This document shows, piece by piece, positions 13,528-33,224 of a stretch of DNA of 64,000 bases (position 1 is its first letter; the number at the start of each line of letters is the position of its first letter). The DNA lies in contig JAREWP010000015.1 of the NCBI GenBank assembly GCA_029001845.1, forward strand, positions 1-64,000, given 5' to 3'. The stretch is from Candidatus Magnetocorallium paracelense (GTDB lineage Bacteria; Nitrospirota; Thermodesulfovibrionia; Thermodesulfovibrionales; Magnetobacteriaceae). Both the position numbers and the translations under genes were made by a program. Under the pieces are notes generated by a model. It searched no databases, had not been told where the DNA came from, and saw only the letters and a program-made list of their open reading frames with translations.

Positions 13528-15057
13528 TTAATCGTTGATTATAAGTTTCTTTAAAGGCCCCGGTTCATTCTTGATAAAAGGAAAAATATAGGTTTCAAAT
13601 AGATCGTCTCTAAAATCAGCCAGTTTTAAAAATATAAAAAATCCATCTTCCTCTATATGTACTGCCGGCTGCTCCCATGCCGTATATGGAAGGTCAACGA
13701 TTGCGACCTCCTTCTTTTTCCAATTTCTTGTCCCGGCAATTTTTTTGTATCGATATATATATAGTTTATTGCCCCCAAGTATGAGGTAGTATTTATTTAT
13801 ACCAGGTACAAGATTCATATGTACTGTCTCCTCTGAGCCGATATTAACTTCCTCTCCTTTGATAAGCTCTTTGAGAAAGCGGCCGCCATTTTCAGTGTTA
13901 AACTGATAATAGCTCAAATATGCATTTTTATTATCTTTAGTAACCACAGCAAGATAATAAAAATTTTTATTTCTAATCATCTGCTTGAATATTCTCAATT
14001 TCGATCCAAGAGATCCGCTCATCCTGCCTATTTGCGATATTCTCGGATTTGGGGACCTAAGTACCATTCTGTCCATAAAATAGACTAAGGTCTCTGCCTC
14101 ATGATGAGTGACCAGTATCAGACCACTGCCGTTTTCGTCCGAGAAAAGGAGGGGAGTAGAGATAGCCCCCTTAATATTTTCTATCTCCTTATGAGTACCT
14201 GTAGAATTGCTGTTAAGGCCATCTATTTCAAAAAGGTTCACGAAGACTTTGCCGCTTCTTTCATTTATATAGAGCAGTACGATTTGATCTACATCAATAA
14301 AGACGCCAATGGGTTTTATATTTCTCTGTAGGTTTATTGTCCGTTTTTTCTCCTCTCCCATACCTTCCTTAATAGTAACGTATTGGAGGGCGTATGACTT
14401 ATCTTGTCTACTTTGAGTAATAAATACAGTATCTATTCTGTGTCTCGGAAAAAGAGATTCATAGGAGTCAAACATCAAATACATGTCACTTAACGTCTTA
14501 ATCCTGTAATCTTTAAAATCAACGAAATAATCATAACCATCTCTGATATCCCTTATTTCAAGAACAGCACGCCTGTTTCCCTGATTGCTCAGAATGAATA
14601 TATAATTGGAGTTTTCGATTTTATAATGATCGGAAAAGAACACTCTTCCAGTCAGATCTCTCCTGGATTTGCTTCTATAATTCCACAGCACGTTTTTACT
14701 TTCAATGTCAATAATATCCATAGCACGCCCATTTTCTTTCATATGAAAATCGATCTTTCGATAATAACCTATCTTTGCATGTCTATTTTCACTACTCTCT
14801 TCTCCTTCCGCATTCATATCCGGTTTTACAGGGGGTGAAGAAGCCGGCCTGACATCGATTTCCGACGTCTCGGAAAGGGGGGGGACGAAGGATTCCTCCG
14901 TTCGCAACTCTCCACTTGTCTCAGATATCCCGGTGTCATAGATTTCCTCAGCCTGTATATATTCATACCGAAACAAAATCAAGCTAAAGATAAAAAGAGA
15001 TAAAACTACAAAGCAGGAATTTTTTATTCCGGTTATTCCTTTTTTTATTAACATCAT
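13528..15057 (-). CDS. Secreted, probably beta-propeller protein of unknown function
   Basis: 509 aa. An N-terminal hydrophobic segment (about residues 12-32) is a signal peptide or anchor. It is followed by an acidic, Ser/Pro/Glu-rich linker (35-90) and then about 400 residues of beta-rich sequence with repeated aromatic strands (NYIFILSNQGNRRAVLEIRD, FYYLAVVTKDNKNAYLSYY, KYYLILGGNKLYIYRY). This is consistent with a propeller, but I recognise no family. Its ATG overlaps the stop of the FHA membrane protein by four bases, so translation is coupled. It is probably a periplasmic part of the same membrane system. Confidence 0.72.
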   Translation of the reverse strand: MMLIKKGITGIKNSCFVVLSLFIFSLILFRYEYIQAEEIYDTGISETSGELRTEESFVPPLSETSEIDVRPASSPPVKPDMNAEGEESSENRHAKIGYYRKIDFHMKENGRAMDIIDIESKNVLWNYRSKSRRDLTGRVFFSDHYKIENSNYIFILSNQGNRRAVLEIRDIRDGYDYFVDFKDYRIKTLSDMYLMFDSYESLFPRHRIDTVFITQSRQDKSYALQYVTIKEGMGEEKKRTINLQRNIKPIGVFIDVDQIVLLYINERSGKVFVNLFEIDGLNSNSTGTHKEIENIKGAISTPLLFSDENGSGLILVTHHEAETLVYFMDRMVLRSPNPRISQIGRMSGSLGSKLRIFKQMIRNKNFYYLAVVTKDNKNAYLSYYQFNTENGGRFLKELIKGEEVNIGSEETVHMNLVPGINKYYLILGGNKLYIYRYKKIAGTRNWKKKEVAIVDLPYTAWEQPAVHIEEDGFFIFLKLADFRDDLFETYIFPFIKNEPGPLKKLIIND

Positions 15058-15983
15058 AATTGACCATCCTTTCTCTTTGCAGAGCGTTTTTCATGATATA
15101 TTAAATTAGTATTTCCAACCCTGATCCTGTCATGATCCAAAAGTATATGATTGTTTTTAATTTTTGTATTCCTTACAAAAGTATCCTTTGTATCGCTTAT
15201 ATTCATAATGATTAGAGAGTCATCCTCTCTCTTTATACGGGCATGGACCTGATCTACTTCGGTATCGGGGAGATAGATGTTCGCTTTCCAGGGATTACTG
15301 CCTATGGTAGCAGTAGATTTACTCATTTTAAAATTATGAATGTATTTACTGAGATTATAAATTTTTCCTGATAAATTGCCGTTTTGCACTACGATCCAGG
15401 CATCCATTAAAATTGTGGTTATTAACGAAACAAAACCTCCGATACAAAACCCCAGGGTGCTGAGGCCCACTGCTTTTCCAATTGCCCTTGTGTCGGTCAG
15501 TCTGGAAATGACCTCAAGGAATATACTGCCAACCAATCCTCCCAATGCCCCTCCCAATGCTCCCTTTAGGGCCTGGGCGCCGCTGTTGATACTGTCAGAA
15601 ATGCCAAGTACAATCCCGAAAACGATCCACCCGACTACTCTGCCGTATGCTCCGGCTCCGATCTCGGTGAAAATAAACTCTCCTGTCAACAATCCGACAC
15701 TCCCGCTTAAAGCGCCAAGGACGCCTCCTATCATGGCCTTTTTGAATGTATGCCTGAGAGAATACCTCAATGCGATATCGGCCATATTAATAAACACCCC
15801 GATAAATGCCCCTATTACAGCTCCGTGATATAAGGCCGTGAAGTAGATATTATTACCTGTATCAAGATGTATAAAAAGTTTCTCTGAAACCAGCCAGCTA
15901 AAAACGCCTCCAATTGCGCCGAAGATTCCGTAATAGTAGGTTTTTAATGTGAGCTGAATTTTATTTATATTGTTATTATCCAT
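15054..15983 (-). CDS. Membrane protein with C-terminal FHA domain
   Basis: 309 aa. Residues ~15-215 hold about six Gly/Ala-rich transmembrane helices with repeating G-x3-G patterns (GGVLGALSGSVGLLTGEFI; GALGGALGGLVGSIF). The C-terminal ~85 residues form a forkhead-associated domain: IGSNPWKANIYLPDTEVD, then the H-A-x-I core at VDQVHARI, then a late N (RVGNTNLIYH). FHA domains bind phosphothreonine peptides, so this gene suggests an unseen Ser/Thr kinase input, although no kinase is in the window. It overlaps the vWA-RING gene by eight bases and the 509-aa gene by four. Confidence 0.82.
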   Translation of the reverse strand: MDNNNINKIQLTLKTYYYGIFGAIGGVFSWLVSEKLFIHLDTGNNIYFTALYHGAVIGAFIGVFINMADIALRYSLRHTFKKAMIGGVLGALSGSVGLLTGEFIFTEIGAGAYGRVVGWIVFGIVLGISDSINSGAQALKGALGGALGGLVGSIFLEVISRLTDTRAIGKAVGLSTLGFCIGGFVSLITTILMDAWIVVQNGNLSGKIYNLSKYIHNFKMSKSTATIGSNPWKANIYLPDTEVDQVHARIKREDDSLIIMNISDTKDTFVRNTKIKNNHILLDHDRIRVGNTNLIYHEKRSAKRKDGQL

Positions 15984-17292
15984 TTATATGAAATCCAAAG
16001 ACCTTTACAAAACGGCTGCATGCACTACACGTATGATTATTTGCGATCCAGCAGTCAATATGATGAACCGCCCCACATTGGGGACAAATGACTATTTTCT
16101 TACAAAATTCCATGCTTATAGGAAATTCCTCACTATTTTCATAGGGACAGATAGTATCTATATAAGGCGAACTTTTATTTAACGACTGAACTGAAAAAAA
16201 ATTGAATTTTAAAGAACCGACAATATGGCTCGAACCTGAAAAAGCTTTCGGCATGAAAAGTAAAACCATCAGTGTCGTAAGTATGAAACTAAAGATTCGC
16301 CACGTAGGGTCGTAGCCTCTCTTTGCCAAAGTCGCTTTTTCCGACACAGGAATTATTCCGCCGGGATTGTAAGATGCTTCTACCCTGTAGATATTACCTT
16401 CATTGTCGATTGTTATTGTAAGGTCACGGTTAAAACCGTCTCGCGATCCGGATGCTCTATACTCAAAAAAATATTCAAATTGCATCTGTCTGGCAATAGA
16501 TGTGTACAGTTGGGACAACTCATTTCCCTGAGGTGTAAAAAAAGCCTTTCCTCCTGTCGCACCGGCCATATATTCAAGTACCTCTCTGTTTATTGTTTTT
16601 TCACTGCTTCCCAGACCGATTGTAAAAATCCTCACACCGGAAGAATTATCTACAACGGACTGCGGGTCTGTTATCACACCTGTTCTGTTTAAACCATCGG
16701 TAAGGAGAATAACCGATTTATCGCCTTTAACCGATTTCATTAAATCAATGGCCTTCATGGCTGCATCATAAAGAGCTGTTGAGTTGGCAGCTTCCAATGA
16801 AAATATTTTTCCTGTCAACAACTCTTTTTCGTCGGTAAATTCCTGATTTACATAGACCTCACGATTGAAACTGATAATGCCAATTCTGTCTTCAGGTTTC
16901 ATCATATTTATAAAATCGACTGACGCTTCCTGAGCCATTTCTAACTTACCCTCTTCCTCCATACTTCCACTGGTGTCAATGACAAGAGCTGTTGTTACGG
17001 GCTTGTCTATCAGGCTCTTGAAATCGAGGAGCTTTACCGGTGCGCTATCTTCTTCTATTACTATCTCATCTTCAAGCAATCCTTCCACAGGCTCGCCCAT
17101 GCTGCTTTCAGCGAGTAATCTTATTTGAATGAGAGGAAACTGTCTGCTGTCGACAACGCCGGTGAACAGATATGTTTCACTTTCCACTACGCTGCGATGA
17201 ATATTTTCTTCAACACAACCGGCAATAAATAGAACCGTAAAGAATAGAATAAACAGATACTTTCCTATCATTACTCCTGACCTGTTAAACAT
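15976..17292 (-). CDS. vWA lipoprotein with TM segment and C-terminal RING-like zinc domain
   Basis: 438 aa. The N-terminus has a lipobox (FIAGC, Cys26). A vWA domain with intact MIDAS follows: DTSGS at 106-110, then ANSTALYDA, then LLTDG. A single TM (IFSFILTTLMVLLFM) comes next, then a treble-clef/RING-like module at 382-425 (C382, C397, C403-x2-C406, H411, C414-W415, C422-x2-C425) of the Prok-RING type. The simplest topology puts the vWA in the periplasm and the RING in the cytosol, next to the Ubl machinery encoded just upstream. RING domains in Ub systems recruit charged E2. The start could also be the ATG eight codons in (MIGKYLF). A transmembrane E3 is inference. Confidence 0.83.
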   Translation of the reverse strand: MFNRSGVMIGKYLFILFFTVLFIAGCVEENIHRSVVESETYLFTGVVDSRQFPLIQIRLLAESSMGEPVEGLLEDEIVIEEDSAPVKLLDFKSLIDKPVTTALVIDTSGSMEEEGKLEMAQEASVDFINMMKPEDRIGIISFNREVYVNQEFTDEKELLTGKIFSLEAANSTALYDAAMKAIDLMKSVKGDKSVILLTDGLNRTGVITDPQSVVDNSSGVRIFTIGLGSSEKTINREVLEYMAGATGGKAFFTPQGNELSQLYTSIARQMQFEYFFEYRASGSRDGFNRDLTITIDNEGNIYRVEASYNPGGIIPVSEKATLAKRGYDPTWRIFSFILTTLMVLLFMPKAFSGSSHIVGSLKFNFFSVQSLNKSSPYIDTICPYENSEEFPISMEFCKKIVICPQCGAVHHIDCWIANNHTCSACSRFVKVFGFHING

Positions 17293-17346
17293 AAATTAAC
17301 TAAGATGCTTTCTTATCTCCTGCTATCCTAAAAGTGATCACGTAAC

Positions 17347-17427
17347 ATAAAAAGATTTAGACAGGATTAACAGGACAAACAAGATTTATTAAACCTGAAT
17401 CTCCTGTTAACCTGTTTAAATAATGGC
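17347..17427. repeat. Pair of ACAGGAT-type repeats in inverted orientation
   Basis: The 150-base gap between the JAB and vWA-RING genes holds AGACAGGATTAACAGGACAA at 17359-17378. An opposite-strand partner (TCTCCTGTTAACCTGTTTAA) lies at about 17400-17419, so the pair could form a hairpin. Confidence 0.55.
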
Positions 17428-17442
17428 CTAATCTGTAATGAA

Positions 17443-18582
17443 TCAACATGGGTAATCTTCAGCAAGCTCCGTTTCGTTTGCAGGTTCATTGCTATCAGGT
17501 TCCCTGTTTAACACCTTCTTCTTTTCCTCCGATTTGTCGTTCTTATTTTGAGCATCATCCGGAGTGCTATTTTCCTTTTTTAAGATATGTTCAAAATGCT
17601 CATTAAGCTTACGATCTAAATTATTTATTGCTTCAACAGCCCTTGTGATTTGGTCATCGCGAGACTGATCGGCAACATCACTTTTCACAGATCTCATTTT
17701 TATGAAATTTCTAAATTGTACTGCTTCCTGTCGGATTATATTAATGTTATAAAATAATATGACCATCAGAACAGTTAGTATGAAAAAAAACAGTGACTGA
17801 ACAAGTGGGAATGTAAAGCGTTTCTTCTCCTTTTTCAGCACCTTTTTTTTCTGTTCCTTTGGTTCATCAACTATCGCTACGTCCTTTATGCTCGATTCCT
17901 GAGCGTCACCAGCAATGGGATATTTCTCTTTATCAGACAGCTTCTCCTCAACCTGTTTTGCATAAGTCTTTGGCGGAGTGGGAAGGTTTTGCCATGAAAT
18001 CAAGGTTTCCTGTTTTAAGTCAGGAATCTCATAAAACGATCTTAGCACCCTTGGTTCGATTCTATTATCGATCCATTTAAAGAAACCACCCTCATTGCGC
18101 CTCGGATCGAGAACCAAAGCAATTTGATATGTTTCCCTGAAATAATTTTCATGAATGAAAATATCCCTGTCAGACAGAAAGACACCATGTCCCGGGTGTG
18201 AATGATACCATCCCAACACTTTTTTATCCGGAAAACGGCCCTGATGCTCCTCATATAATGAAGAAAAAGTCCTATTCGTAAACTCGAGCTCACAAAGAGC
18301 CGCTTTTGTATGAAGGGCTTCCAGGGAAGAGTCTATAACTATATATGGAATATAAGTTTCAACATCCTCGCAGTAATCGCCTAGAAGAAAACCGCCTGTT
18401 TCCCTATTCATATCCAATGAAACATGATCGACTATAATCTGGTAAACTCTTTGTGTAATATGAATATCTATGCTCTTTTCCTCATGCATTGTGTACAAAA
18501 GCCGTTGAGATGGCAGGGGTCTGGCTGAAGGTCCGTTTTGGGCATCTGTCGAGAGTATCCTTATCATCGGTTTCTTAATCAT
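17443..18582 (-). CDS. Membrane-anchored JAB/JAMM metallopeptidase (Ubl peptidase) A
   Basis: 379 aa. The JAB domain spans about residues 36-170 with every zinc-site element: E61 in ETGGFLLG, H127-S-H129-P-G, S137 and D140 (H-x-H-x7-S-x2-D). This family removes ubiquitin-like proteins from targets or trims their C-termini. A basic stretch precedes one TM (about 275-297), and a charged coiled-coil tail of about 80 residues follows. The catalytic domain should therefore be cytosolic and the tail periplasmic. It lies 17 bases downstream of a second JAB gene, which is unusual because one JAB usually suffices per cassette. The paralogue differs in having extra TM segments and a zinc ribbon. Confidence 0.92.
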   Translation of the reverse strand: MIKKPMIRILSTDAQNGPSARPLPSQRLLYTMHEEKSIDIHITQRVYQIIVDHVSLDMNRETGGFLLGDYCEDVETYIPYIVIDSSLEALHTKAALCELEFTNRTFSSLYEEHQGRFPDKKVLGWYHSHPGHGVFLSDRDIFIHENYFRETYQIALVLDPRRNEGGFFKWIDNRIEPRVLRSFYEIPDLKQETLISWQNLPTPPKTYAKQVEEKLSDKEKYPIAGDAQESSIKDVAIVDEPKEQKKKVLKKEKKRFTFPLVQSLFFFILTVLMVILFYNINIIRQEAVQFRNFIKMRSVKSDVADQSRDDQITRAVEAINNLDRKLNEHFEHILKKENSTPDDAQNKNDKSEEKKKVLNREPDSNEPANETELAEDYPC

Positions 18583-18599
18583 AATCCTCTTTTTTTTAT

Positions 18600-20309
18600 T
18601 TAAGGTTGATTTATAGAGAGCATCAATTCGGTTTCTTTAGTCATCGTGTTATTGTCACCGGATGTGAAGATAATGACAACCGGTTCTTCTTTGGCTATAT
18701 CGGTTTCTTTAATTTCATATTCAGATTGCCAGGGATTATTGCTTTCAGTTGCACTGTTTCCTAAACTATCCTCTAAATTAAGCGTCTCAGTTATATTACC
18801 GATCTTAAACAACCCTGATATAGGTTCTATAGAGTTATCGGTAAGCTCTACAGATAGCTTGATTATATCTCCTTTTGAAACACTGCTCTTTGATTGCAGT
18901 TTCTTCTCACCAATGTTTGTAAATTTGATTAACTTCACTTTCTCTATTTTTATTTGAGGCGTACTTGGAGTTTCATCTTTTCCCTTTTTGTCTGCTTCCG
19001 CTGTATCGACGTTAGTTTTATTTTCATCGCTGATTATATCTTCCGCAACGGCTAGTTGTTTATTATTATTGTTGAGGTTTTTATGGAGTGTCGGACTACT
19101 TGTATCCACTCGGTTCAAAATATCGGGCTTTAAGTGGATGTGAGCAGTAGCTGCACCGGTGTCATTAGTGGATGGCTTAGCGATATTTTCCTTTTTTTTA
19201 TTGTCTATAACAGGAAGCAATGTGATCGTTGAGCTGAGCATGAGAGCTAAAATAATTAATGAAAAAGACGCCATATCGATTAGACGATTTTTTATCGAAT
19301 TCTTAAAGAAACCTTTGATTAATATAATAATTGCGATATTGAATAAAAAAAAGGGCGAGCTTTTTTGTATGATATCAATTAAAGTATGGATTGGGATTTG
19401 GAATTTTCTTAGAAATAAATAAAACAATAAGCAATTCAGTGTAACACCGAATGACAGGAAGGCATAAAAGCTTATTTTTTGCTTCGCTGTTGATTGTTCC
19501 GGTTCATCGTGAACTAAAGCTTTATCCTCATGTTGAGTGGAGTCGTTAGTTTCTCTTATCTTAATTCCGAGCTTAGAAGAATCCTCTCCTTTCAATGCCA
19601 TGATATCGGATCGGTTGGATATAAACTTATCGAGCTCGAAATTTTTACAATCCTTTTCTGATAATATTCTGCCCTTTCCGATCCATGAAAAAAACCCGCC
19701 TCTGTTTTTCTTTGTATCCAACACAAGGGCAACCTGCCACGACTCTTTGAAAAGGCTTTCATGTATAAAAATATCAGGATCGGATAACATTATGCCGTGC
19801 CCCGGATGGCTGTGATACCACCCGACAACCTGACGATCAGGGAAACGCCTGTTTCGTTCATTATCGATTTGAATCCATGTCTTGTGATTAAATTCCAACT
19901 TATAGTAATTAGAGACAGCATATTGCGCTTCTATAATATCTTCAATCACTATAAATTCAAACCTCTCTATCTCCTCTATGTATGCCTGTCCGATAAGCAC
20001 TCCTCCACGCTCATTGTCAGTGTCTCCCAAAACATGTTTAATCGCTTTCTTCATAGCAAATTCAGAATAAAAGATATAAAACTTACCATCTTGAGTAGAT
20101 ATTTCTATTTTTTGCAGATCAATTCCCATAGGGGGGAATTTACCTTGCATTGGCTTCATCGCAGAGGGTTTCGTAACAAAAACCCTGGGAGGCTTACCTG
20201 AGCTTGAAACGGGATTTACACATTGAATACATATTCCGTTTTTCGTCGTAATTTGTCCATTACAAACGTCGCAAACTGCTTTCGTTCCGGTATTCATTTT
20301 TGCTTTCAC
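18600..20309 (-). CDS. Multi-pass membrane JAB/JAMM metallopeptidase B with N-terminal zinc ribbon
   Basis: 569 aa from GTG at 20309, overlapping the E2 stop codon by one base. A four-Cys ribbon lies at C13-x2-C16 and C27-x2-C30. The JAB domain at ~75-215 has E100, H166-S-H168-P-G, S176 and D179. About three hydrophobic segments between ~275 and ~370 form a membrane domain. The C-terminal ~190 residues are a polar linker plus a beta-rich module that is likely extracytoplasmic. It is expected to cleave Ubl conjugates at the inner face of the membrane. The zinc ribbon may bind the Ubl or E2. The closest relative in the window is the neighbouring JAB A, with near-identical GWYHSHPGHG motifs. Confidence 0.92.
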   Translation of the reverse strand: MKAKMNTGTKAVCDVCNGQITTKNGICIQCVNPVSSSGKPPRVFVTKPSAMKPMQGKFPPMGIDLQKIEISTQDGKFYIFYSEFAMKKAIKHVLGDTDNERGGVLIGQAYIEEIERFEFIVIEDIIEAQYAVSNYYKLEFNHKTWIQIDNERNRRFPDRQVVGWYHSHPGHGIMLSDPDIFIHESLFKESWQVALVLDTKKNRGGFFSWIGKGRILSEKDCKNFELDKFISNRSDIMALKGEDSSKLGIKIRETNDSTQHEDKALVHDEPEQSTAKQKISFYAFLSFGVTLNCLLFYLFLRKFQIPIHTLIDIIQKSSPFFLFNIAIIILIKGFFKNSIKNRLIDMASFSLIILALMLSSTITLLPVIDNKKKENIAKPSTNDTGAATAHIHLKPDILNRVDTSSPTLHKNLNNNNKQLAVAEDIISDENKTNVDTAEADKKGKDETPSTPQIKIEKVKLIKFTNIGEKKLQSKSSVSKGDIIKLSVELTDNSIEPISGLFKIGNITETLNLEDSLGNSATESNNPWQSEYEIKETDIAKEEPVVIIFTSGDNNTMTKETELMLSINQP

Positions 20310-20926
20310 TAACTTTTAGAAATAATTCTTATTTTATTTCCGGCTCTGGGATTAACTGTTATTTTCCCTGTACTTTTTAAATTAACATCCACTCTTTTGG
20401 GTCTGAGTAATTCTCTTGTATCCACAGGTTTATCGATGGAAAGAATCCCTTTAGGCTCCGCCCAATCGCGGACCCATTTAGCAGCCTCACCATCGTAGGG
20501 ATAGGGAGGCTCATTTTTGGCATGATAGTTTTTGTACTGAATCATCTCTCCAATCATAATACAAATGCTATCGAGAGTCCTGTTCGCCGCCCACCATGCA
20601 GGATTTATGCAAGGACGATGAGGTTCCTTGTGCTCTATATTGGGGTGCCAGACAGGAGTCAGGCATCTCATTTGAGGTTGCTTTTTAGGGTAGTCGGCAT
20701 GCAAATAGATCTCCACTTGATGTAACTCAGCATATATTGGCTCCTGATTGTCATCGATTCCTTTTATGCCTTTGCATTTGTATGTAACTTTATATTTATC
20801 CGGCGGCATATTAGGCGAGTGGTCAATAACTTCAAAGCTTATAAGATCACTTCTTCCCGCAAGAGCGACCATCCGATTATGATCGGAAATTTTCCGTCTG
20901 TTTTGCGGAGTTAATTCTATTGCCAT
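20309..20926 (-). CDS. E2-like ubiquitin-conjugating (UBC fold) protein, cassette 1
   Basis: 205 aa. The UBC core is recognisable from its E2-type HPN motif (H94-P95-N96) after LTPVW, then the candidate catalytic Cys106 in PHRPCINPAWW, with helices following (SICIMIGEMIQY). Strands before this (KYKVTYKCKGIK, HQVEIYLHADYPKKQPQM) match the E2 meander and its Y-P-x(4-5)-P feature. It would accept the Ubl from the E1 as a thioester and pass it to a target, perhaps with a RING protein's help. The insert between HPN and Cys is longer than in eukaryotic E2s. The ATG overlaps the Ubl stop by one base, so the two are translationally coupled. Confidence 0.92.
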   Translation of the reverse strand: MAIELTPQNRRKISDHNRMVALAGRSDLISFEVIDHSPNMPPDKYKVTYKCKGIKGIDDNQEPIYAELHQVEIYLHADYPKKQPQMRCLTPVWHPNIEHKEPHRPCINPAWWAANRTLDSICIMIGEMIQYKNYHAKNEPPYPYDGEAAKWVRDWAEPKGILSIDKPVDTRELLRPKRVDVNLKSTGKITVNPRAGNKIRIISKS

Positions 20927-21201
20927 TAGGAAACCTCCCCTGCAATGATACTCTGGGTAATCGCAAAACTGCTTCCTCCTCCAAGTCCTGCTGAAGCCAG
21001 AGTTTCGTTGTCACTTAGTTCACGCCCCAAATCCTTGTTGTGAATTTTGTAACTTACAGGTTGACCATCGTTAGCGACTGTGGGCAGTGAAAGAGCTGTG
21101 ACAAGCTCCGGTATTATGTCACTAATCGGAACATCGTCGGGCAGCTCCACCTCAGAGGTTCCTCCTGTAGGTACTGTAATCTTTACTTCAATACTGGCCA
21201 T
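20926..21201 (-). CDS. Ubiquitin-like modifier (YukD/EsaB-like fold), cassette 1
   Basis: 91 aa. An N-terminal beta-hairpin (SIEVKITVPTGGTSEVEL) leads into the hallmark helix of YukD-like Ubls, DDVPISDIIPELVTALSLP, then beta-strands to the end. The second Ubl in this window (33893-34147) shares the DVPIxDxxP core. There is no terminal Gly-Gly. The tail is IIAGEVS with Gly88 three residues from the end, so one of the linked JAB peptidases may have to trim it before activation. AGGAGG lies 8 bases before the ATG. The gene sits between the RING and E2 genes, the classic place for a bacterial Ubl. Confidence 0.9.
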   Translation of the reverse strand: MASIEVKITVPTGGTSEVELPDDVPISDIIPELVTALSLPTVANDGQPVSYKIHNKDLGRELSDNETLASAGLGGGSSFAITQSIIAGEVS

Positions 21202-21249
21202 TGTAATTTCCTCCTATTAAATGTCAGATTATATGTTCAAAAGCTCTCT

Positions 21250-21714
21250 TTATATTTTATGATTCACTGCGCATTTACCGTCATTAGCCTCCCAGCAATC
21301 CTTATGATACTTGGCATTACATGTGGGACAAACTTCGAAACCGCCATTGCTTTCTGTTAATTCATTGCAGCAATAGACGCATTTCACATTTTCATCTATA
21401 GAAACGGAAAAAGGTTTGCCTGCAATAATTCCGGTTATTGCAACAGTATTATTTCGCCTGCCTGATTCAACCGCCTGATCGGAAGCTTTATATCCGGGAG
21501 TTAATACTCTGACATATTGCTCCTTTTTTAGTACTTTGACACGATTTCCCGAATAATCCGACCCACAGGAAGTTGATAAATAATTTGTATTATTCAAACG
21601 TCTTTTTCTCAGCCTGAATAATATAAATATCAGCAGGACAACAACGGCCCCTCCGATCGGCGCATAAACTTCTAGAGGTATATTATGTAAAATCGAGAAC
21701 ATCGCCTGCGTCAC
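21250..21714 (-). CDS. Single-pass membrane RING-finger protein (candidate E3), cassette 1
   Basis: 154 aa from GTG at 21714; ATG at 21702 is an alternative. A hydrophobic segment (about 18-33) is followed by the strongly basic RLRKRR, so the C-terminus should be cytosolic. Residues ~60-110 look like a small beta domain. Residues 112-152 form a RING-like zinc module: C112-x2-C115 (and C116), C129-x2-C132, H137, C140-W141, C148, H152. Spacing from CPxC to CW to the last Cys matches the vWA-RING protein exactly. Prok-RING domains have been reported next to bacterial Ubl/E1/E2/JAB genes. The gene overlaps the E1 gene by 20-32 bases. Confidence 0.86.
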   Translation of the reverse strand: MTQAMFSILHNIPLEVYAPIGGAVVVLLIFILFRLRKRRLNNTNYLSTSCGSDYSGNRVKVLKKEQYVRVLTPGYKASDQAVESGRRNNTVAITGIIAGKPFSVSIDENVKCVYCCNELTESNGGFEVCPTCNAKYHKDCWEANDGKCAVNHKI

Positions 21715-22879
21715 CGGTCAACTCAAAACTCATTGAGCGTTCATTTCCTACTGCCCTGATAATATGAAGCGGAGGAACGCCTATTTCATAAAGAGTCTTG
21801 TGTGAAAAATCCTCTTTTCCGGTAATTTTATTCGTAGTGGAGGGAACCATTAATTTGCCGCATCGCCTACAGTCCGATTCTTCCAAAAAGACTCTGCCGG
21901 TCGGTCTTAATACAAGCTCTTCTCTCCCGCACTCCGGACATTTTAAAGTTACAACCAGCTCATAGCCAAGCTCAATTATCGCCTCCGCACCTAAATGTTC
22001 CCCGATTATCTCCAACATCTCCTTTATTGTAGTGTCTGAGGCCTTATTCTCCTTTAGCTCAACGGGATCAGGGTAAGTATAGTGACTCATGCACTCTTCC
22101 TTTACAGGATATTCGGTTGTATATATAAGATTCGTCAAACCATTAAATACAATGGCCTTTCCGGATAATGAAAAATCATTCATTCCATGGAGCAGTTTTA
22201 ACGCTTCCTGTGACTGAATCCCTGCAATTATGGATGAAATCGTAGGGGTTGTAGGCACCTTGCCAAGGGTAATATTTTTTAATGCCAGGTCTTTACAGGG
22301 CATTCTCTGATCCAACAATACCCAATCCTGCTCAGAGAGCGTGCATTCATAACATGCGCCGTTATCAGGAGCAAAGACACGGGCTATTCCATAAAGCTCC
22401 TCTATAGCGCCGTCTACCCAGGGTTTATTCATATAACGGCAGGAACGATTAACCGACAGTCTGGCCTCTCTGTTATCAAGACACCCTATAATTACATCCA
22501 TTCTGCGAAATACCCCCAAACCGAGATCATGGTTCACATCGCCATCGAAAGTCTTTACCTTTACGGAAGAATTCATAGTTCTGACAGCCGATGCAGCAGT
22601 GTCCGTTTTCTTTTTACCATTGTCCACCTCCCTGAACAAAACCGATCTGCTCAGGTTCGCCGCCTCGATAGTGTCAACATCCAGGATAAAAAGATTTCCA
22701 ATGCCCATGAGTGCCATGTTTTTTATAACCTCGTTCCCAAGGGCGCCTGCGCCTACTACCATTACCTTTGCCTTTTCTATCTTATCCTGATCCCACCATG
22801 AGATAAGACGCAGTGTTCCGGCGCGGTCCCTTGACAAATCGGGAATTTTGACAATGCAGGATTTTTTTTGTTCAGACAT
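21683..22879 (-). CDS. E1-like Ubl-activating enzyme (ThiF fold), cassette 1
   Basis: 398 aa. The N-terminal ThiF/UBA domain has the nucleotide loop G43-A-G-A-L-G48, Asp68, the N-L-S-R motif (75-78) and D135-N136. A Cys pair at C176-x2-C179 is followed by C195 (RMPCKDL), which sits where MoeB/E1 enzymes carry the catalytic Cys. PTTPTISS then leads into the helix near the adenylation site. The C-terminal ~120 residues include a four-Cys ribbon (CPEC...CRRC). It should adenylate the Ubl C-terminus and pass it to the linked E2. The extended C-terminal region is not the eukaryotic UFD and may bind the E2. Confidence 0.92.
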   Translation of the reverse strand: MSEQKKSCIVKIPDLSRDRAGTLRLISWWDQDKIEKAKVMVVGAGALGNEVIKNMALMGIGNLFILDVDTIEAANLSRSVLFREVDNGKKKTDTAASAVRTMNSSVKVKTFDGDVNHDLGLGVFRRMDVIIGCLDNREARLSVNRSCRYMNKPWVDGAIEELYGIARVFAPDNGACYECTLSEQDWVLLDQRMPCKDLALKNITLGKVPTTPTISSIIAGIQSQEALKLLHGMNDFSLSGKAIVFNGLTNLIYTTEYPVKEECMSHYTYPDPVELKENKASDTTIKEMLEIIGEHLGAEAIIELGYELVVTLKCPECGREELVLRPTGRVFLEESDCRRCGKLMVPSTTNKITGKEDFSHKTLYEIGVPPLHIIRAVGNERSMSFELTGDAGDVLDFT

Positions 22880-22961
22880 AACCTATACCACCTTTCCTAA
22901 AATAAGGAATCAGATTTCAGAAAACAGGAGACAGAATGAAAAAAGCCTTGAACGATCACTA

Positions 22962-25904
22962 TCATTTTTTAATAGTCCCGGCATGTTCTTGGTGTTTATC
23001 GGCATTGCTGTTTTCACTATAATCACTCTCATTGCTCTTGTCATGTTCTAACATGCCTGAATCGCTTTCTCCATGATTGTATCCTTTAAAACTTATTGAC
23101 AACTGCTCTTCCTGAATTCTTTTAATCTCATCGCTGGGAACCGACAGTTCGACTTTTTCTCTTCTTTTTAATATCTCATTTTCACGATTATTTATTATTG
23201 CATTCTTTTTATCATAGGACTCCTGAGTGATCTCTTCGTTAATTAACTGAAGATAGAGACTCTCCTTATCTTTAATGAGTCCCTCGAGTTCCGTTCGATC
23301 TCTTTCAAGAAGCATATTGAGTACCTTTTTATTATGGTCATAAAGAATATTATCCCTGTCAACAAGCCTTTTCAGCCCGTCCTCATAAGTTTCATAAGCT
23401 ATCTTTCTCATAGCTTTGTTTCGTTCCGTAATGACTCTTGTCTCCTCGGCTTTGGCGGCATTTAAAATTTCAATGTTTTGTTTGACCCATGTTATGCCTC
23501 GATATTCATTCCTGTTAAAGATATGTTTGACAATTTCTTCGCAGTTAGAATCGTCGGGGTCATTTTTTATTATATTATGCTGCCTTACAAATCCTTTTAA
23601 CTCCTCAATAATCACTTTTGTCAAGGCAGGCTCGTCAATCTTTTGAGCCTTCTCATCGATATATGTAATCGAGCCGCGAATGTGGTAGGTCTCTCCGTTT
23701 TTAGCGTTCACGGCAATAGACTCATGGTCAATGTCTAGATAGAGTATTCTTGTCTCCTTTGTAGGGGTGATAGTTACAGATAAATTTGATAATACAAAGG
23801 ATTGATCTCTATAGCCCGGGAAATCACGTATCCATTTATCGCACTCCTCTAATGAGAGATAGTGAGATTGAGAATTTTCAGCCTTCATTTTCAAATAAGA
23901 CGATAACCCGTTAATTAATCTCTCCTTTTCAAAGATATCTATTGCAATGGTATAACCATCGATAATACCCTCAAGAAGATAACCTTTACTATTTGCGGTT
24001 TCCAGCTCCACTTGAACAGAGAGGTTAAAAAATTTATTATAATCGTTCAGTTCTGGCAGAGTAGCCGTTGCCACAGTTATGTCCAAGCCTTCGATAAAAC
24101 CGATTTTTTCAATAATTTCCTGAACCATTACAGGCGTTAAAGGACCATTGATATCTCCTGCCTCTTTAATCAATATGGATTCCAGACGCGCTCTGATAAG
24201 ATTTACGATCTTTTCGTTATCGCTGTTTTCATTATTACCGGAGCCTCTGCAATAAACCGCCACATTTTCCAGATAATAGGAATGCCCTGTGTTGGTTCTT
24301 AGAAAATAGGAATCGCTCTCTTCTTTTCCAAGGATCACAGTGATGGAATGAGTAACATTTTCGATTGTTACAAGCACAGTGTTAACAAAAAAACCATAAA
24401 GCTCCTTTCTCCCTTCCTCCTGAATCAGGCTCTCACACTCTTCAACCTTAGGAATTCCTGTGACTGTTCTAAAATACTTTGTTAACTCGCCAACAAGGTG
24501 AGTCTTGAATCTATCTGCACCATTCCATTCTTCCCTGATCACAAGGCAATCCAATGCTGCGTGTAATCGACAGAAAAAACCATCTCTGCTGCGCAATGTC
24601 GTCTCTAAGGAAATCTCTTCCGATTGCATCCGTTTATCGAACCGAATATACCGGATGCCGTTAAATCTTAGCTTATACTCTTCCTCCAGATTCAGCTCCT
24701 TGATAAACCACCTGATATGTTCCTCTGACTGTAACTGCCCTCCTCCGACAGCCATTTGCAGTTGTTCTTTAAAATAGAGCTCTACCTCCTCACCGGGAGA
24801 TGTCCTTAGTTGCGTCAGATAACTTATCTTGGCCTCGATTTCAATGATAATTCCTTCTCCGGCCTTTAACTGCAAAGGTAAATCGGAGCGTCCTAAGTGA
24901 AGTTCGACAGCTCTGTAGGTTAGCCTGGGTTCACGGGGGACATCTACAGCGTCAATAACCGAGGAGAAGTCATCCGGTCTGGGAGTTTCAAGCACGGCAT
25001 TTATTATCCGCCCCTTACTGAGAAAAGTATCGAATTTCTCGGCAAACACCTTTAGATAATCCGCTATTTTAGTTCTAAGCTGACGGATATTATCATTGGA
25101 CTCACTTCCTGTTCTGCCACGAACCTCAACCCACACTTCATATGTCTCCTGAATCCCGCTTGTCAGTTCAAGACCCGGTTTATCGAATATTCCCTGAGAG
25201 GATTGGACCGGATTCTCCTGCGGACCACCGGTTAATATTTTAATCTTACCGCTCTTTTGTCCTTCATCGCTTCCCAACACCCTGACACGTCCTGAAGTAT
25301 TGTCGTCAACGGACCTCGATGTCTCACTTCTATTAGAATTGACAAGACGTATCTTCGTCTTTTTAACAACATGAGAATTAACGGGGCTAAATGTTATGTC
25401 ATCGTCCACATGAAGCCAGAAGGCGAACTGCTTTGATTTGTCAATAATCCTTATGTTATTTAACTCTTTTACAGATACTTCCTCTCCAATGAGAGGTTGT
25501 ACAAGCACTTCTCTGCATGAATCCTCATCCAGCTCAGGCATGGTTTTAGCCTTGTTATTGAGATTCTGCTTTTTACGTTCTATAAGCAAGGAGAGAGAAT
25601 CCTCATCGCCATGAAATTGTTCTGCAACGATATCCGATTTCCTGCATTCGCAAACCAAATCTACTTTGACCTGATAAATCAGACCATTTAAGGAAACAAC
25701 CTCCTGTTCAAAAGGCACACTTATCGATTTTCTGCTCACCCTGTATCCAGGCTTATTCTTTATTAAAGGCAACCTCTGTCCGAATGTGAAGATTTTTGAT
25801 TTGATCTCACCATGGGAATCTTGAATTTGCACGATATCATACCCCTCACGCTGTTTCCAGTCAGTTTGAACTACCATTTTATATAATGATGTAAGATTAG
25901 GCAT
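22962..25904 (-). CDS. Large cytosolic protein with tandem SPFH-like repeats and C-terminal coiled coil
   Basis: 980 aa with no signal peptide or TM. I see about six diverged units of 100-130 residues, each with a strand-turn-strand pattern around a Gly (SLNGLIYQVKVDL, SRDGFFCRLHAALDCLV, TNTGHSYYLENVAVY, AKNGETYHIRGSITY). Helices follow, and in some units an EEC[ED] motif (VEECESLI, LEECDKWI). The last unit ends GITWVKQNIEILNAAKAEE and runs into a long charged coiled coil (~820-935). This layout resembles SPFH/band-7 domains, which assemble membrane microdomains, but the match is by eye only. It lies two bases after the 704-aa gene and upstream of E1, so it is probably a core structural partner of cassette 1. 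Confidence 0.75.
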   Translation of the reverse strand: MPNLTSLYKMVVQTDWKQREGYDIVQIQDSHGEIKSKIFTFGQRLPLIKNKPGYRVSRKSISVPFEQEVVSLNGLIYQVKVDLVCECRKSDIVAEQFHGDEDSLSLLIERKKQNLNNKAKTMPELDEDSCREVLVQPLIGEEVSVKELNNIRIIDKSKQFAFWLHVDDDITFSPVNSHVVKKTKIRLVNSNRSETSRSVDDNTSGRVRVLGSDEGQKSGKIKILTGGPQENPVQSSQGIFDKPGLELTSGIQETYEVWVEVRGRTGSESNDNIRQLRTKIADYLKVFAEKFDTFLSKGRIINAVLETPRPDDFSSVIDAVDVPREPRLTYRAVELHLGRSDLPLQLKAGEGIIIEIEAKISYLTQLRTSPGEEVELYFKEQLQMAVGGGQLQSEEHIRWFIKELNLEEEYKLRFNGIRYIRFDKRMQSEEISLETTLRSRDGFFCRLHAALDCLVIREEWNGADRFKTHLVGELTKYFRTVTGIPKVEECESLIQEEGRKELYGFFVNTVLVTIENVTHSITVILGKEESDSYFLRTNTGHSYYLENVAVYCRGSGNNENSDNEKIVNLIRARLESILIKEAGDINGPLTPVMVQEIIEKIGFIEGLDITVATATLPELNDYNKFFNLSVQVELETANSKGYLLEGIIDGYTIAIDIFEKERLINGLSSYLKMKAENSQSHYLSLEECDKWIRDFPGYRDQSFVLSNLSVTITPTKETRILYLDIDHESIAVNAKNGETYHIRGSITYIDEKAQKIDEPALTKVIIEELKGFVRQHNIIKNDPDDSNCEEIVKHIFNRNEYRGITWVKQNIEILNAAKAEETRVITERNKAMRKIAYETYEDGLKRLVDRDNILYDHNKKVLNMLLERDRTELEGLIKDKESLYLQLINEEITQESYDKKNAIINNRENEILKRREKVELSVPSDEIKRIQEEQLSISFKGYNHGESDSGMLEHDKSNESDYSENSNADKHQEHAGTIKK

Positions 25905-25906
25905 TA

Positions 25907-28021
25907 TTATATCCTCCTTTGCTTAAGACGCTCCCTGGTAGAAGCAGAATAAACGGCCCTTCGTCCCTTTATCCCAAGCCTCCGCGAAACAGCGTTATAA
26001 ACCTCATGCTTAATATCGCCTATGGGTCTCTCCTCCCATGGTTTCAAAAAGAACCAGAAAATCTCCTGATAATCGGAACGCTTTGGCTTTCTCTTTACAC
26101 GCGCCAATACATTCCCGGAACGTCTTCCCGGCTGCCGGGACCGTGTTTCAGAGATTGGTTCAGAATTATTATCGGAGGACTCAAGCTCCTTGTAGAGTTC
26201 CACAAGCAGGTTTGTAATAATTTCACGCACCTCCGGTTCATAAGTACGCTCATTATCTTTATCCGAAAAGGCGTCGAGCCAATTCGCCAGCAGGTTTACA
26301 TTGATTTGGCTTATCAATATATTATAGAAGTCGGATATTTCCTCGGGATTGGAAGCAGAGCGAATGACTGAGGCAAAGACATTGATGATAGTTTTTTGGA
26401 TCTTGTCATCCATGCTTTGTGTGAACACCAGCCACAAAGCTTCCACACTCTTACGCCCCAGATTTTTTTGATTTACTATTCCCTCCTTACCATTATCGAG
26501 GAGTTCCTTTTTTATAATTCCAAGAAAAACATCCAACATTCTTTGAAAGAAGTCCACTTGTATTTTTTTTAGATTCTTATCTTGCTCCGATACGACCCAT
26601 TGGCTCAGCTTAGTCAACACATCGCGATAAAAGCCGCTCAAACCTAAGACAACAAGAGAATATATCACTGCATCCAAGAGATATTTTTTATGAGATAAAT
26701 CTGAAATCGTTCTTTGTTTTTTCAGTACATATTGTAGACAGTTTAGTGCAACATCTATATCCGCTTTACCGATCTCCTTGCATACGGAAGCGGATGTCCA
26801 CTGAAGTCTTATGTCTCCCGTATTAACCCAATCTTTCAAATATACAAAAATGCTCTCACGAGACAAACCGCTCTCAACTGCTTCGGTCAATATAAATCCA
26901 CTGGCAGCTCTAATGCCTAAATCGTTGCTGATCGCCCAGGTACTTGTTAAGAGGTTGAAGACATATCCGGCGCCATGTTTCATAAATCCGCCGATTGCAT
27001 GCCCTATTTGACGACGATCTTCCCATGATAGATCCGGGCCGGTGATGATAATGTCGAATAATATTGGAATTATCTGAGTGATTGCTATATCTCTGTGCTT
27101 TTGACGAATAAAGTTGTCGATCTCAGGTAAATGCTTACTGTCAAAACAAACCACATCTATTGTGTGGCCTCCGATTTCACGGGTTTCTACCCGGGCATCG
27201 ATTCTGTCAAGAGCAGACATAAAGCTTTCTTCTAAAATGGATGGTTGTACCTGGGCTTGTGCATTTTGGTCGTTGTTTATACTGCTTTGAAATCTATTCG
27301 CCTTTTGTTCTCCTATTGTGGGTATGCCTAAACTATTTACAACTCTGTTAAATATCGATTGAAGAGTCACCCACTCGATTTGAGGAAACATAATTATAAG
27401 AATTGAAATTATTATGTCTCTGTCATACAGTTCGTCCCTACACTGCAATAGTCTGGCTTCTCCTGCTGCATGTGAAGTATCTCCGCCTGTGTTTTCACTT
27501 TGTAGTCTATTGATCTTCTCTGCGTATTCATTCGCTTCTTTTGTATACTCCTCGATAGCCAGCTTAGCCTTATTAAAATTCTCCGGGTTGAATACCGGAT
27601 CGGTTGCGTTCTTAACTTTTAACCAGCGATCTAATAAATCCTCGGCTGTATGCTTTAGCTGCAAGTTATAACGTATTTCATTATCTCTGGAACTAAAAAG
27701 TCGACTTTCTAACCCCCTTACCAACTCCTTGTCGGATAATATTTCATCGATTATTGAGTTGTTGTCAGTGATGGTGTGTTCGTCATTTATACTCTCCCGA
27801 TTGTCAGATTCGGAAGTAAGTGACACCGGGTCCGCCTCTTCATCTACTGCTGTATCCGCTCCATCTGAAACAGTAGTTCCTCCGTCTCTATCGGTTACAA
27901 CATCACCTGTATCAGTACTTTCGCCTGAGATATTTCCCTCCGGTTGTTCCATGCTCTGAGCACTCTGGCTCTCAGAGACAGGAGTCGTTTCGGAAGAAGA
28001 TCGATTTTCCTCTGTTGACAT
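25907..28021 (-). CDS. Large helical protein with disordered acidic N-terminus
   Basis: 704 aa of no family I recognise. Residues 1-95 are Ser/Thr/Glu/Asp-rich and probably disordered. Residues ~98-175 are helical and carry a segment (TDPVFNPENFNKAKLAIEEY, 140-159) that matches the C-terminal segment of the neighbouring TIR protein (TDPIHDPERYEEIKLKIEVY). The middle (~190-620) looks like HEAT/ARM-type helices; the tail is basic and Arg-rich (GRRAVYSASTRERLKQRR). It is translationally coupled to the 980-aa gene with a two-base gap. A scaffold that brings the TIR effector to the 980-aa protein is a reasonable guess. Confidence 0.72.
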   Translation of the reverse strand: MSTEENRSSSETTPVSESQSAQSMEQPEGNISGESTDTGDVVTDRDGGTTVSDGADTAVDEEADPVSLTSESDNRESINDEHTITDNNSIIDEILSDKELVRGLESRLFSSRDNEIRYNLQLKHTAEDLLDRWLKVKNATDPVFNPENFNKAKLAIEEYTKEANEYAEKINRLQSENTGGDTSHAAGEARLLQCRDELYDRDIIISILIIMFPQIEWVTLQSIFNRVVNSLGIPTIGEQKANRFQSSINNDQNAQAQVQPSILEESFMSALDRIDARVETREIGGHTIDVVCFDSKHLPEIDNFIRQKHRDIAITQIIPILFDIIITGPDLSWEDRRQIGHAIGGFMKHGAGYVFNLLTSTWAISNDLGIRAASGFILTEAVESGLSRESIFVYLKDWVNTGDIRLQWTSASVCKEIGKADIDVALNCLQYVLKKQRTISDLSHKKYLLDAVIYSLVVLGLSGFYRDVLTKLSQWVVSEQDKNLKKIQVDFFQRMLDVFLGIIKKELLDNGKEGIVNQKNLGRKSVEALWLVFTQSMDDKIQKTIINVFASVIRSASNPEEISDFYNILISQINVNLLANWLDAFSDKDNERTYEPEVREIITNLLVELYKELESSDNNSEPISETRSRQPGRRSGNVLARVKRKPKRSDYQEIFWFFLKPWEERPIGDIKHEVYNAVSRRLGIKGRRAVYSASTRERLKQRRI

Positions 28022-28162: not shown

Positions 28163-28894
28163 TTATTCCATTGATTTCAACTCTATCTCTAATTTATCTA
28201 GCTCCTGAGAGTAGACCTCAATCTTTAATTTGATCTCTTCATATCTTTCGGGATCATGAATCGGATCCGTCACCTTAAAAATCTTTCTAAAATGCTGTAT
28301 ACGCTCCTGAATATTTATAATCTGCTCTTCCCATGCATCTATTTTACTTTTATGGGCATGACACTTTTTGTTTCTACGAGTTTCTTTCAAATAATTCTCT
28401 ATTCTTTTATATTTAAAGTTAATTTGTTCGTTAAAAAATCCTTCTTTAATCAGATCACATATGCCTTGAACAACGTTATTAAAGGCTTCATCTATATTAG
28501 GCCAGCTTGTTACCGCCTTCCCGTTATGTGGGAGAGCTTGAAGTTTACCTAAAGGTGTAACATCCCAATGACAATCACGGAGAATAACTGGTACGATAAC
28601 AGCATCACCAAAATTCTGCCTCGCCATTGCATGCTTCATTTCAACACCATAACAGAAATCAGATTGAATAAAATCCGATGAAATAAGAAGCAGGATTATA
28701 TGGGCATTATCTAAATGCTCATTTATTTCCCCTTCCCACTCTTGTCCGGATAGAATTTCACGATCATGCCAAATATTAATAAGACCACAACGCTTTAAAG
28801 CCATAAGGTGACTTTTAAGATTATTTTTTAATTCCTCATCCTTGTGAGAGTAGGATATGAAAAGGTTAATAGGTGTATTTAAATATTTATACAT
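28163..28894 (-). CDS. TIR-domain protein with C-terminal helical adaptor segment
   Basis: 243 aa. Residues ~8-150 form a bacterial TIR domain (TIR_2 type): NLFISYSHKDEEL, NIWHDREILSGQEW, HIILLLISSDFIQSDFCYGVEM with candidate catalytic Glu85, VIVPVILRDC, LQALPHNGKAVTSWPN. Many bacterial TIRs cleave NAD+ on activation in immunity, and others act as scaffolds. Residues ~160-243 are a coiled coil ending in a segment shared with the 704-aa protein downstream. The start lies 12 bases after the ATPase-phosphoesterase stop. Its place between two Ubl cassettes suggests a regulated effector, but toxicity cannot be judged from sequence. Confidence 0.9.
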   Translation of the reverse strand: MYKYLNTPINLFISYSHKDEELKNNLKSHLMALKRCGLINIWHDREILSGQEWEGEINEHLDNAHIILLLISSDFIQSDFCYGVEMKHAMARQNFGDAVIVPVILRDCHWDVTPLGKLQALPHNGKAVTSWPNIDEAFNNVVQGICDLIKEGFFNEQINFKYKRIENYLKETRRNKKCHAHKSKIDAWEEQIINIQERIQHFRKIFKVTDPIHDPERYEEIKLKIEVYSQELDKLEIELKSME

Positions 28895-28906
28895 CGTTTG
28901 AATTTA

Positions 28907-30958: not shown

Positions 30959-31005
30959 ATCATAATTCCTTATTTTATGGATAATATTTTTTTAACAGCA
31001 TCATC

Positions 31006-32502
31006 TCATGTTACCTTTTTTATAATATGCTCCACTAAGTCGCTTTTATGATCGTTAAAGATGATAGATTCATCCTTAATAGAATGATTCATATCAAAGA
31101 TGTTAATATTATCCTCATGAAAGCGCATTCTTCCTATCACTTTTTGCATATAATAGATTGTATATGAAGTATTCATATTTATTATATGCATGACTCCCAC
31201 CTGCTTAGCAGTATGAGTTAAACGTATACTTATTTTATTTGAAAGTTGAGTTATTAATGACGGTAACTTATCCTCTCTTTTTATTAAGAATAAAATTGAT
31301 GAATCATCTATTTTTTTATCGCTTATAACAGTTAACTCCATATTATCAGCAAAACAGACTGCATACTCTTTACCCGGTTTAACTAGACTGCATGATACAT
31401 ACCTGAGCTTACTATTTTGTAAATGCATGAAATGCTCATTTGGGACAATAATCAATGTATGTTCGAATTTAGCATATGTACTTGATGGCGGTTCAACGCC
31501 AATAGGTTTACCTGTTTTAATATTGAAATAATATCTCTTTTTATTAATAGTACAGATTATATAACTGCCTTTTGATTGAGTGTAATCATTTTTCCAGGAT
31601 AAAATACTTTCCAAACTTTCCTTTGATAAGTTACCACCCTCATCAATAAATACTTGAGAGTATTTCATATCGTTCAGTTCTTTGTTCCCATTTAAACGTT
31701 TACTGCTTTTACCAAAGGCAAATACAATTAATCCAAAAGATACTATAGTAATTAACACTAATGAAACGAATTGAATTCTTATCGCATAAAATAGAAAGTT
31801 ATTACTATAATCAACAAGACCATATAGAAACTTATCTACCTGCCCCAAATTGTTTGAACTTATCTCTTCTGAAATTGCAGTATGTAATTCTATAAATGTT
31901 CTTCTGCTTATTCTCTCATACCCTTCCTCAACATTGAGAAGCTTCCAAAAAAATAACAATGCATTATCAAGTTTTTGAAACTCAGTATTTGTAAATTTTA
32001 TAAAATCATCTGTTTGGTTATTTATAGTTTTACTTTTTTTATCTTTTCTTTTTAACTTACCCTCTAACACTGAGTTTGAAGAAAATTTAGTGTAGTTTAT
32101 ACCACTAGATAAAAGTAATACTTTGTAATTCTCAAAAGGGTTGTTTTTCGCTATATCTATTGCTTTCTGTACAGCACCTTTTAAATCTGATTCAGTCTGT
32201 TTTTTTATGTTATTACTGTTGTTTTTGATAAATTGATATATTGCATTAATATCGTCTTCTTTTTCATTTGTTTTATTACCAGTTGTAATAACAGATATAT
32301 CATCACCCTCTGCTGTTTCTTCTAAAGCACTAATGATCTCTTTTATCAGATCATAATCTTCTTTTGTATATAAATCCGATAAGTCAAGCAAAATAATATA
32401 CTTAAATTGCTTGACCTCATAATTAAAAAAATAACTGTAATAGCAAACATTAAAAGTAATTACGGCTACTATCAAAAGTGAATATACATATCTTCTAATC
32501 AT
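31006..32502 (-). CDS. Membrane protein with degenerate vWA-like domain
   Basis: 498 aa. An N-terminal TM (about 5-27) is followed by a vWA-like fold: YIILLDLSDLYTKEDYDLIK stands where a MIDAS D-x-S-x-S would be but lacks the final Ser, and LLLSSG stands for the usual SDG. A second TM (~245-265) precedes a C-terminal ~230-residue domain of mixed strands that I do not recognise. Metal binding is thus doubtful. It plays the same positional part in cassette 2 that the vWA-RING protein plays in cassette 1: next to JAB and membrane-spanning. AT-rich like the ATPase-phosphoesterase gene. Confidence 0.72.
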   Translation of the reverse strand: MIRRYVYSLLIVAVITFNVCYYSYFFNYEVKQFKYIILLDLSDLYTKEDYDLIKEIISALEETAEGDDISVITTGNKTNEKEDDINAIYQFIKNNSNNIKKQTESDLKGAVQKAIDIAKNNPFENYKVLLLSSGINYTKFSSNSVLEGKLKRKDKKSKTINNQTDDFIKFTNTEFQKLDNALLFFWKLLNVEEGYERISRRTFIELHTAISEEISSNNLGQVDKFLYGLVDYSNNFLFYAIRIQFVSLVLITIVSFGLIVFAFGKSSKRLNGNKELNDMKYSQVFIDEGGNLSKESLESILSWKNDYTQSKGSYIICTINKKRYYFNIKTGKPIGVEPPSSTYAKFEHTLIIVPNEHFMHLQNSKLRYVSCSLVKPGKEYAVCFADNMELTVISDKKIDDSSILFLIKREDKLPSLITQLSNKISIRLTHTAKQVGVMHIINMNTSYTIYYMQKVIGRMRFHEDNINIFDMNHSIKDESIIFNDHKSDLVEHIIKKVT

Positions 32503-32555
32503 TAGATGTATCCTATAATATAGTTATTACTATAATACATTTTTTATATATAAAA

Positions 32556-33218: not shown

Positions 33219-33224
33219 AAACTT

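Follow-up and report, generated by a model that had tools for sequence, protein, structure and literature searches.

A membrane-anchored RING-type protein encoded beside E1 in a bacterial ubiquitin-like operon is a plausible E3-like component

The window analyzed here is a 64,000-nucleotide stretch of DNA (positions 1 to 64,000 of contig JAREWP010000015.1) from Candidatus Magnetocorallium paracelense. A tight operon on its minus strand, which we call operon A, spans positions 15054-28021 and carries genes for a 704-aa protein, a 980-aa protein, E1, a membrane RING protein, Ubl, E2, two JAB peptidases, a vWA-TM-RING protein, and a TM-FHA protein in that order, along with further genes beyond those named (Table 1). 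The RING gene lies between the genes for E1 and Ubl, and the positions of the open reading frames agree with a previous sequence-only reading on this point. Its overlap with the E1 gene is 32 nt from the GTG start and would shrink to 20 nt if translation began at an in-frame ATG at codon 5 instead. The RING and Ubl genes are separated by 48 nt, and the Ubl/E2 and E2/JAB1 pairs each overlap by one base. A scan of the coding strand for terminators from E1 to Ubl returned only one weak hairpin, which is located within the RING gene. The 980-aa protein has no Pfam match and no relative in seven related genomes.

Table 1. Window coordinates of features in the two ubiquitin-like operons.
Feature	Position	Strand	Basis or remark
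TM-FHA protein, conserved in Chloroflexota operons	15054..15983	(-)	FHA E=1.9e-9; 36% over 292 aa to L071 protein
vWA-TM protein, C-terminal degenerate RING	15976..17292	(-)	VWA E=6.4e-15; Prok-RING_1 3.3e-5, partial
JAB/JAMM peptidase 2, 379 aa	17443..18582	(-)	JAB E=3.3e-12
JAB/JAMM peptidase 1, 569 aa	18600..20309	(-)	JAB E=5.1e-7
E2, 205 aa, putative catalytic Cys C106 in RPCINPAWW	20309..20926	(-)	UQ_con E=2e-8
YukD-like Ubl, 91 aa, ends IIAG-EVS	20926..21201	(-)	YukD E=7.7e-13; standalone relatives end ..TAG
Membrane RING protein, 154 aa, GTG start	21250..21714	(-)	ORF; Prok-RING_1; aligned homologues
RING-type treble-clef module, residues 108-154	21253..21393	(-)	Ligands, alignment, AlphaFold, fold comparison
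Predicted transmembrane helix, residues about 14-35, then RLRKRR	21610..21675	(-)	Hydropathy; AlphaFold helix 14-42
E1-like ThiF protein, 398 aa, overlaps RING gene	21683..22879	(-)	ThiF E=1.7e-54; 53-57% identity to Chloroflexota E1s
980-aa operon protein, unknown family	22962..25904	(-)	ORF
704-aa operon protein	25907..28021	(-)	Weakly similar to L064 679-aa protein: 19% over 366 aa, E=2e-8
Operon B RING-like protein, 196-208 aa, before E1	35440-36030		C-terminus in RING frame

The membrane RING protein has a single transmembrane helix near its N-terminus and a zinc module at its C-terminus, joined by a disordered linker. Hydropathy reaches its maximum at residues 14-32, residues 14-42 form a helix in the AlphaFold model (block pLDDT 87-97 over residues 11-40), and the basic stretch RLRKRR follows on the C-terminal side, all of which bears out the proposal of a transmembrane segment with an inside-positive flank. 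By the positive-inside rule, this arrangement would place the RING module on the cytoplasmic side, together with E1 and E2. The linker is poorly modeled (pLDDT <50 at residues 47-97 and 99-106), and residues 110-153 are modeled with confidence (block pLDDT 91-95 for residues 111-150).

The frame CPxC-x4-H-x2-CW-x6-C that had been noticed in both this protein and the vWA protein is present in each, as CPTC in the former and CPQC in the latter. The five ligands it comprises were rightly described, but C112, C115, and H152 had been overlooked, and the total therefore comes to eight potential ligands (C112, C115, C129, C132, H137, C140, C148, and H152). Their spacing, C-x2-C-x13-C-x2-C-x4-H-x2-C-x7-C with C148-x3-H152 as the last pair, follows the order of RING/treble-clef modules, and from these putative ligands we propose that the module binds zinc. 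The resulting C4HC2H order, with four residues between C4 and H, matches neither of the canonical eukaryotic arrangements, C3HC4 and C3H2C3.

The best Pfam match of the protein is Prok-RING_1 (PF14446), which reportedly represents the prokaryotic RING fingers of Burroughs, Iyer, and Aravind (2011). The match (E=3e-6) scores 27.5 bits, just under the whole-protein cut-off of 29.1, and rises above the cut-off in a genome search (31.7 bits). The same profile matches all 12 of the aligned homologues. Like the family, the module has the Prok-RING_1 ligand frame and spacing and is linked to E1, E2, Ubl, and JAB genes, and many family members in our sample also have membrane helices. The differences are that the last ligand pair is C-x3-H, with His in eighth place, instead of C-x4-C, and that our protein combines a single N-terminal transmembrane helix with a RING at the very C-terminus.

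A second Pfam match, to C1_1 (E=0.0064, 16.7 bits versus a cut-off of 26.5), raises the question of whether the module might be a PHD- or C1-like reader, recognizing a peptide tail or a lipid at the membrane to sense a pathway signal. Furthermore, the PHD profile matches three of the 12 homologues, and the confident part of the RING model aligns with both RING and PHD structures at similar Z-scores (about 3.2-4.2). The aligned structures include RNF165 and ZNRF1, which are RINGs solved with E2. The Z-scores are low, and the fold comparison does not discriminate RING from PHD. A Foldseek search with the model gave no match at E <0.001, and a family missing from the match list is not thereby excluded. 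However, the Prok-RING_1 match is far stronger, and the recurrent linkage with E1 and E2 also speaks against a reader function, which we consider quite improbable. The N-terminal His ligand of C1 domains does not occur about 13 residues before C112.

The linkage with E1 was evaluated by sampling E1 loci from GTDB genomes with a DNA pattern for GAGxxGNExxKN-x23-RSxxFR, a motif that the two E1 genes in the window share. This yielded at least 80 loci, each examined over up to 8 kb, and the frequencies given here hold for the matches listed only. Among these matches, a strict RING motif (a seven-ligand pattern) is found in 22 of 80 loci and 25 of 627 ORFs, and most of the loci are without it within 8 kb. 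Because the motif is absent from all 200 residue-shuffled ORF sets, chance is excluded as an explanation. All 25 of the genes are on the same strand as E1.

The RING gene directly follows E1 in the Chloroflexota loci L046, L070, L071, L072, L092, L101, L115, and L116, plus L044, and these nine loci have the E1-RING-(Ubl-)E2 order in common as far as the locus reaches E2. Eight Chloroflexota loci meet the strict pattern, with gaps of -88 to +23 nt between E1 and RING. In those eight proteins, the RING comes last in the chain, with three to five residues after the C-x3-H, as compared to two in our protein. Outside this set, the last ligand pair is mostly C-x4-C. The protein closest to ours in architecture, among the matches listed, is a 210-aa protein in L064 with one N-terminal transmembrane helix and a C-terminal RING, which is encoded just before E1 and Ubl.

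Identity between the membrane RING protein and its homologues is low outside the zinc module, as might be expected if the gene were a decayed or misannotated zinc protein and a mere passenger of the operon. Yet a second phylum preserves the ligands, the transmembrane segment, and the place of the gene, and we regard this explanation as very improbable indeed. The overlap with E1 had also been taken to indicate matched expression. The case for co-expression with E1 is good, because Chloroflexota loci show both the E1-RING-(Ubl-)E2-JAB order and the close spacing of the E1 and RING genes again.

The similarity to the E1-RING-(Ubl-E2)-JAB-FHA-vWA operons of Chloroflexota (Anaerolineales; L046, L071, L072, and L115) extends beyond gene order to the C-terminal C-x3-H RING, to E1 proteins that are 53-57% identical, and to the TM-FHA and vWA genes. 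However, the Chloroflexota RING proteins have two to four transmembrane helices rather than one, their operons encode a Ubl-E2 fusion and mostly a separate Ubl where ours has Ubl and E2 split, and their vWA proteins are without the RING carried by ours. In an E1 tree, the operon A protein adjoins the Chloroflexota RING clade with modest support (85/65), inside a well-supported group of 37 rows (98/91). Searches for RING and E2 in 199 and 395 genomes of the relatives and phylum of the host gave matches in the host only, and this suggests that the island was acquired laterally, most simply from a Chloroflexota-like source. No match came from scanning genomes with only the E1 protein as query, from two scans of viral contigs with E1 alignments, or from a search of plasmids for E2; the second viral-scan alignment included two single-substitution copies of the window E1, solely to widen the pattern.

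The presence of two RING proteins in one operon had been suggested to reflect two targets or a heterodimer, and this proposal is weakened by our findings. The module of the vWA protein is without its second Cys (CPYE, with Glu instead) and matches only part of the Prok-RING_1 profile. Moreover, the vWA orthologues in eight Chloroflexota genomes are without a RING and end in a short, mostly basic tail, and thus the vWA RING was either gained in the lineage of the window or lost in the others. Elsewhere, two RING-type genes are found in the operons of L042 and L099 and three in those of G443 and G449. Several RINGs per operon are therefore a recurrent but variable trait rather than a fixed pair. 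An obligate RING-RING heterodimer was set aside, as the vWA RING is degenerate and missing from the orthologues.

Directly upstream of operon A, and on the same strand, is a divergent second ubiquitin-like operon (operon B, 28163-36066). It encodes TIR, AAA-metallophosphatase, vWA-TM, JAB, E2, Ubl, and E1 proteins, and the 196-208-aa RING-like protein stands before E1. The TIR protein is ThsB-like (183 bits), and the E1 has its closest counterpart in Bacteroidota (45% identity). In the RING-like protein, the His and one Cys of the RING frame are replaced (CRSC-x4-L-x2-SW-x6-CTVC). Its model has a strand-strand-helix core (pLDDT 91-93), where the alignment of RING homologues that was used presupposes the relation. 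These predictions suggest that a RING-like protein adjacent to E1 has been retained despite the loss of zinc ligands.

Taking this evidence together, we think it somewhat probable that the membrane RING protein is a membrane-anchored, cytoplasm-facing representative of the Prok-RING_1 type that serves as an E3-like component in the Ubl pathway of the operon. E3 activity is plausible on the strength of the gene itself, the predicted transmembrane helix, the eight potential ligands, the predicted treble-clef fold, the synteny with E1 and E2, and the conserved E2 Cys, with the position of C106 invariant in the E2 alignment. Indeed, the products of a similarly composed archaeal operon form an E1/E2/RING-E3 cascade in vitro (PMC5654768). 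Of 30 modules, 29 have a hydrophobic residue directly ahead of the second Cys, at a position of RING-E2 contact, and in our protein this residue is Tyr114.

Of three canonical RING features, this hydrophobic contact residue alone is conserved. None of the 30 modules has the canonical Trp at the fourth position beyond the sixth ligand; most have Asn or Thr there, our protein has Asn144, and its W141 comes directly after C140. The linchpin Arg/Lys position after the last ligand is basic in only six of 30 modules; our protein has K153. On the side of E2, the loop at the RING-contact position (YPF/YPL) usually offers Phe or Leu, and the operon A protein has Lys there. In addition, a locus in a genome of the host's own family (L036, in G005 C33, 6905-9489) encodes two multi-TM Prok-RING_1 proteins in a sialic-acid/capsule-type setting without ubiquitin genes. 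The occurrence of such proteins away from ubiquitin genes means that the domain alone is no proof of E3 function.

The canonical activating residues, being absent or not conserved, would also fit a protein that acts as a non-catalytic zinc adaptor, tethering E1/E2 or Ubl to the membrane for localization and assembly without activating E2~Ubl. The coupling of the RING gene to E1 rather than E2 agrees with this alternative, as does the loss of ligands from the RING-like protein beside E1 in operon B, as if full zinc binding were dispensable. In addition, a C-terminal peptide such as KPRIKLK is common to E1, E2, and vWA proteins of the relatives, and the similar stretches RVKVLKK and YVRVL occur in our RING protein; this suggests assembly by short docking motifs. 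However, eight ligands and the hydrophobic E2-contact residue are kept in nearly all of the relatives, and the RING of the similarly composed archaeal operon is an E3 (PMC5654768). We therefore judge a purely adaptor role to be rather unlikely, while taking it seriously.

The peptide merits description in its own right. Otherwise unrelated proteins of the Chloroflexota operons share a near-identical end, with KPKIKLK in E2, KKPRIKIK in vWA, and SGRVRLRD in E1, and the peptide is present in L046, L071, L072, L115, L116, L101, and L186-L193. The pattern [IV][KR][LIVF][KR][DN]?$ fits 21 of 750 complete ORFs, some of them counted twice as a result of overlapping loci, and 20 of the 21 are E1, E2, or vWA proteins of Chloroflexota operons. 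The E2 of operon A ends in NKIRIISKS, and the two similar stretches of the RING protein lie in linker residues 58-71. Thus, the shared peptide may be a docking tag.

If the membrane RING protein does act as an E3, the pathway might proceed as follows. A JAB peptidase would cut Ubl from ..IIAG-EVS to ..IIAG, E1 would activate the trimmed Ubl, and Ubl would then be passed to E2 at C106. The RING would bind E2~Ubl, perhaps stimulating transfer, and keep it at the membrane, where proteins in the vicinity would become modified. Substrates could be the vWA, FHA, and JAB membrane proteins of the operon itself. In relatives, the last three residues of the standalone Ubls are TAG, and the Ubls at 20926-21201 and 33893-34147 are tailed (IIAG-EVS and EFG-V, respectively); these tails would need removal if the Gly is the conjugated end. 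The host has one PF00227 gene (191 aa), which is probably HslV rather than a proteasome link because the same search also matches in E. coli and B. subtilis. A more specific proposal, which we offer only tentatively, is that the protein is a membrane RING E3 with a C4HC2H order and no contact Trp, working with a Ubl that ends in -AG and with enzymes joined by a basic-hydrophobic peptide. If true, bacteria would have an E1-E2-RING cascade that uses a docking code of its own.

A RING-type E3 component in an E1/E2/JAB operon is of a kind already described. For bacteria, E3 components of the RING type that accompany E1, JAB, and Ubl-E2 are on record (PMC7159879, citing Burroughs 2011), and a review gives bacterial RINGs as C4HC3, some without two ligand pairs (PMC11354881). 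The operon of Caldiarchaeum subterraneum likewise brings together E1, E2, Ub, RING, and a JAMM peptidase, and its small RING protein srfp is a proven E3 (PMC5654768). However, srfp is a RING-H2 (C3H2C3) protein with functional E2-contact Ile and Trp residues and a linchpin Arg (PMC5654768), as opposed to a membrane-anchored C4HC2H module with the Trp missing. The FtsH ternary conflict tri-ligase Ubl system shares E1, a RING-type E3, Ubl-E2, JAB, and vWA with operon A (PMC7159879), but it includes the ATPases MoxR and FtsH, and its Ubl and effectors are fused to EAD1 (PMC7159879); operon A shows FHA and vWA. Among the operon proteins scanned, Pfam revealed no MoxR, FtsH, or EAD1, where EAD1 may have no Pfam model. 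Bil and Bub operons also encode bacterial E1, E2, Ubl, and a JAB-type peptidase (PMC13373217). Bil differs in having a two-domain Ubl and a BilD-type E1, whereas operon A has a single YukD-like Ubl of 91 aa and a RING; its E1 matches BilD only weakly (2e-6 over 66 residues).

In the literature searched, which did not include Burroughs 2011, we found neither the C-terminal C4HC2H membrane form with a fixed E1-RING-(Ubl-)E2 order nor a description of the C-terminal peptide shared by E1, E2, and vWA. To our knowledge, no bacterial RING of this type is known as an E3 for a bacterial Ubl, and none appeared in the literature searched. The consistent recurrence of the gene order, zinc ligands, and membrane anchor makes the ligase role directly testable. 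Operon A is well suited for this purpose, as it is compact and has all components, including a RING of approximately 45 residues that could be produced apart from its anchor, a candidate E2 Cys, and an identifiable Ubl end. It could serve as a test system for RING activation outside the archaeal-eukaryotic line and for the role of membrane-directed tagging in bacteria.

Two other genes in the window were noticed by eye. The cyclase protein encoded at 51600-54389 contains a stretch that resembles CHAT proteases (HYAGHAD, NACHSG), and the repeat protein encoded at 57436-60732 contains one that resembles caspases (DHGGDG, DACESG).
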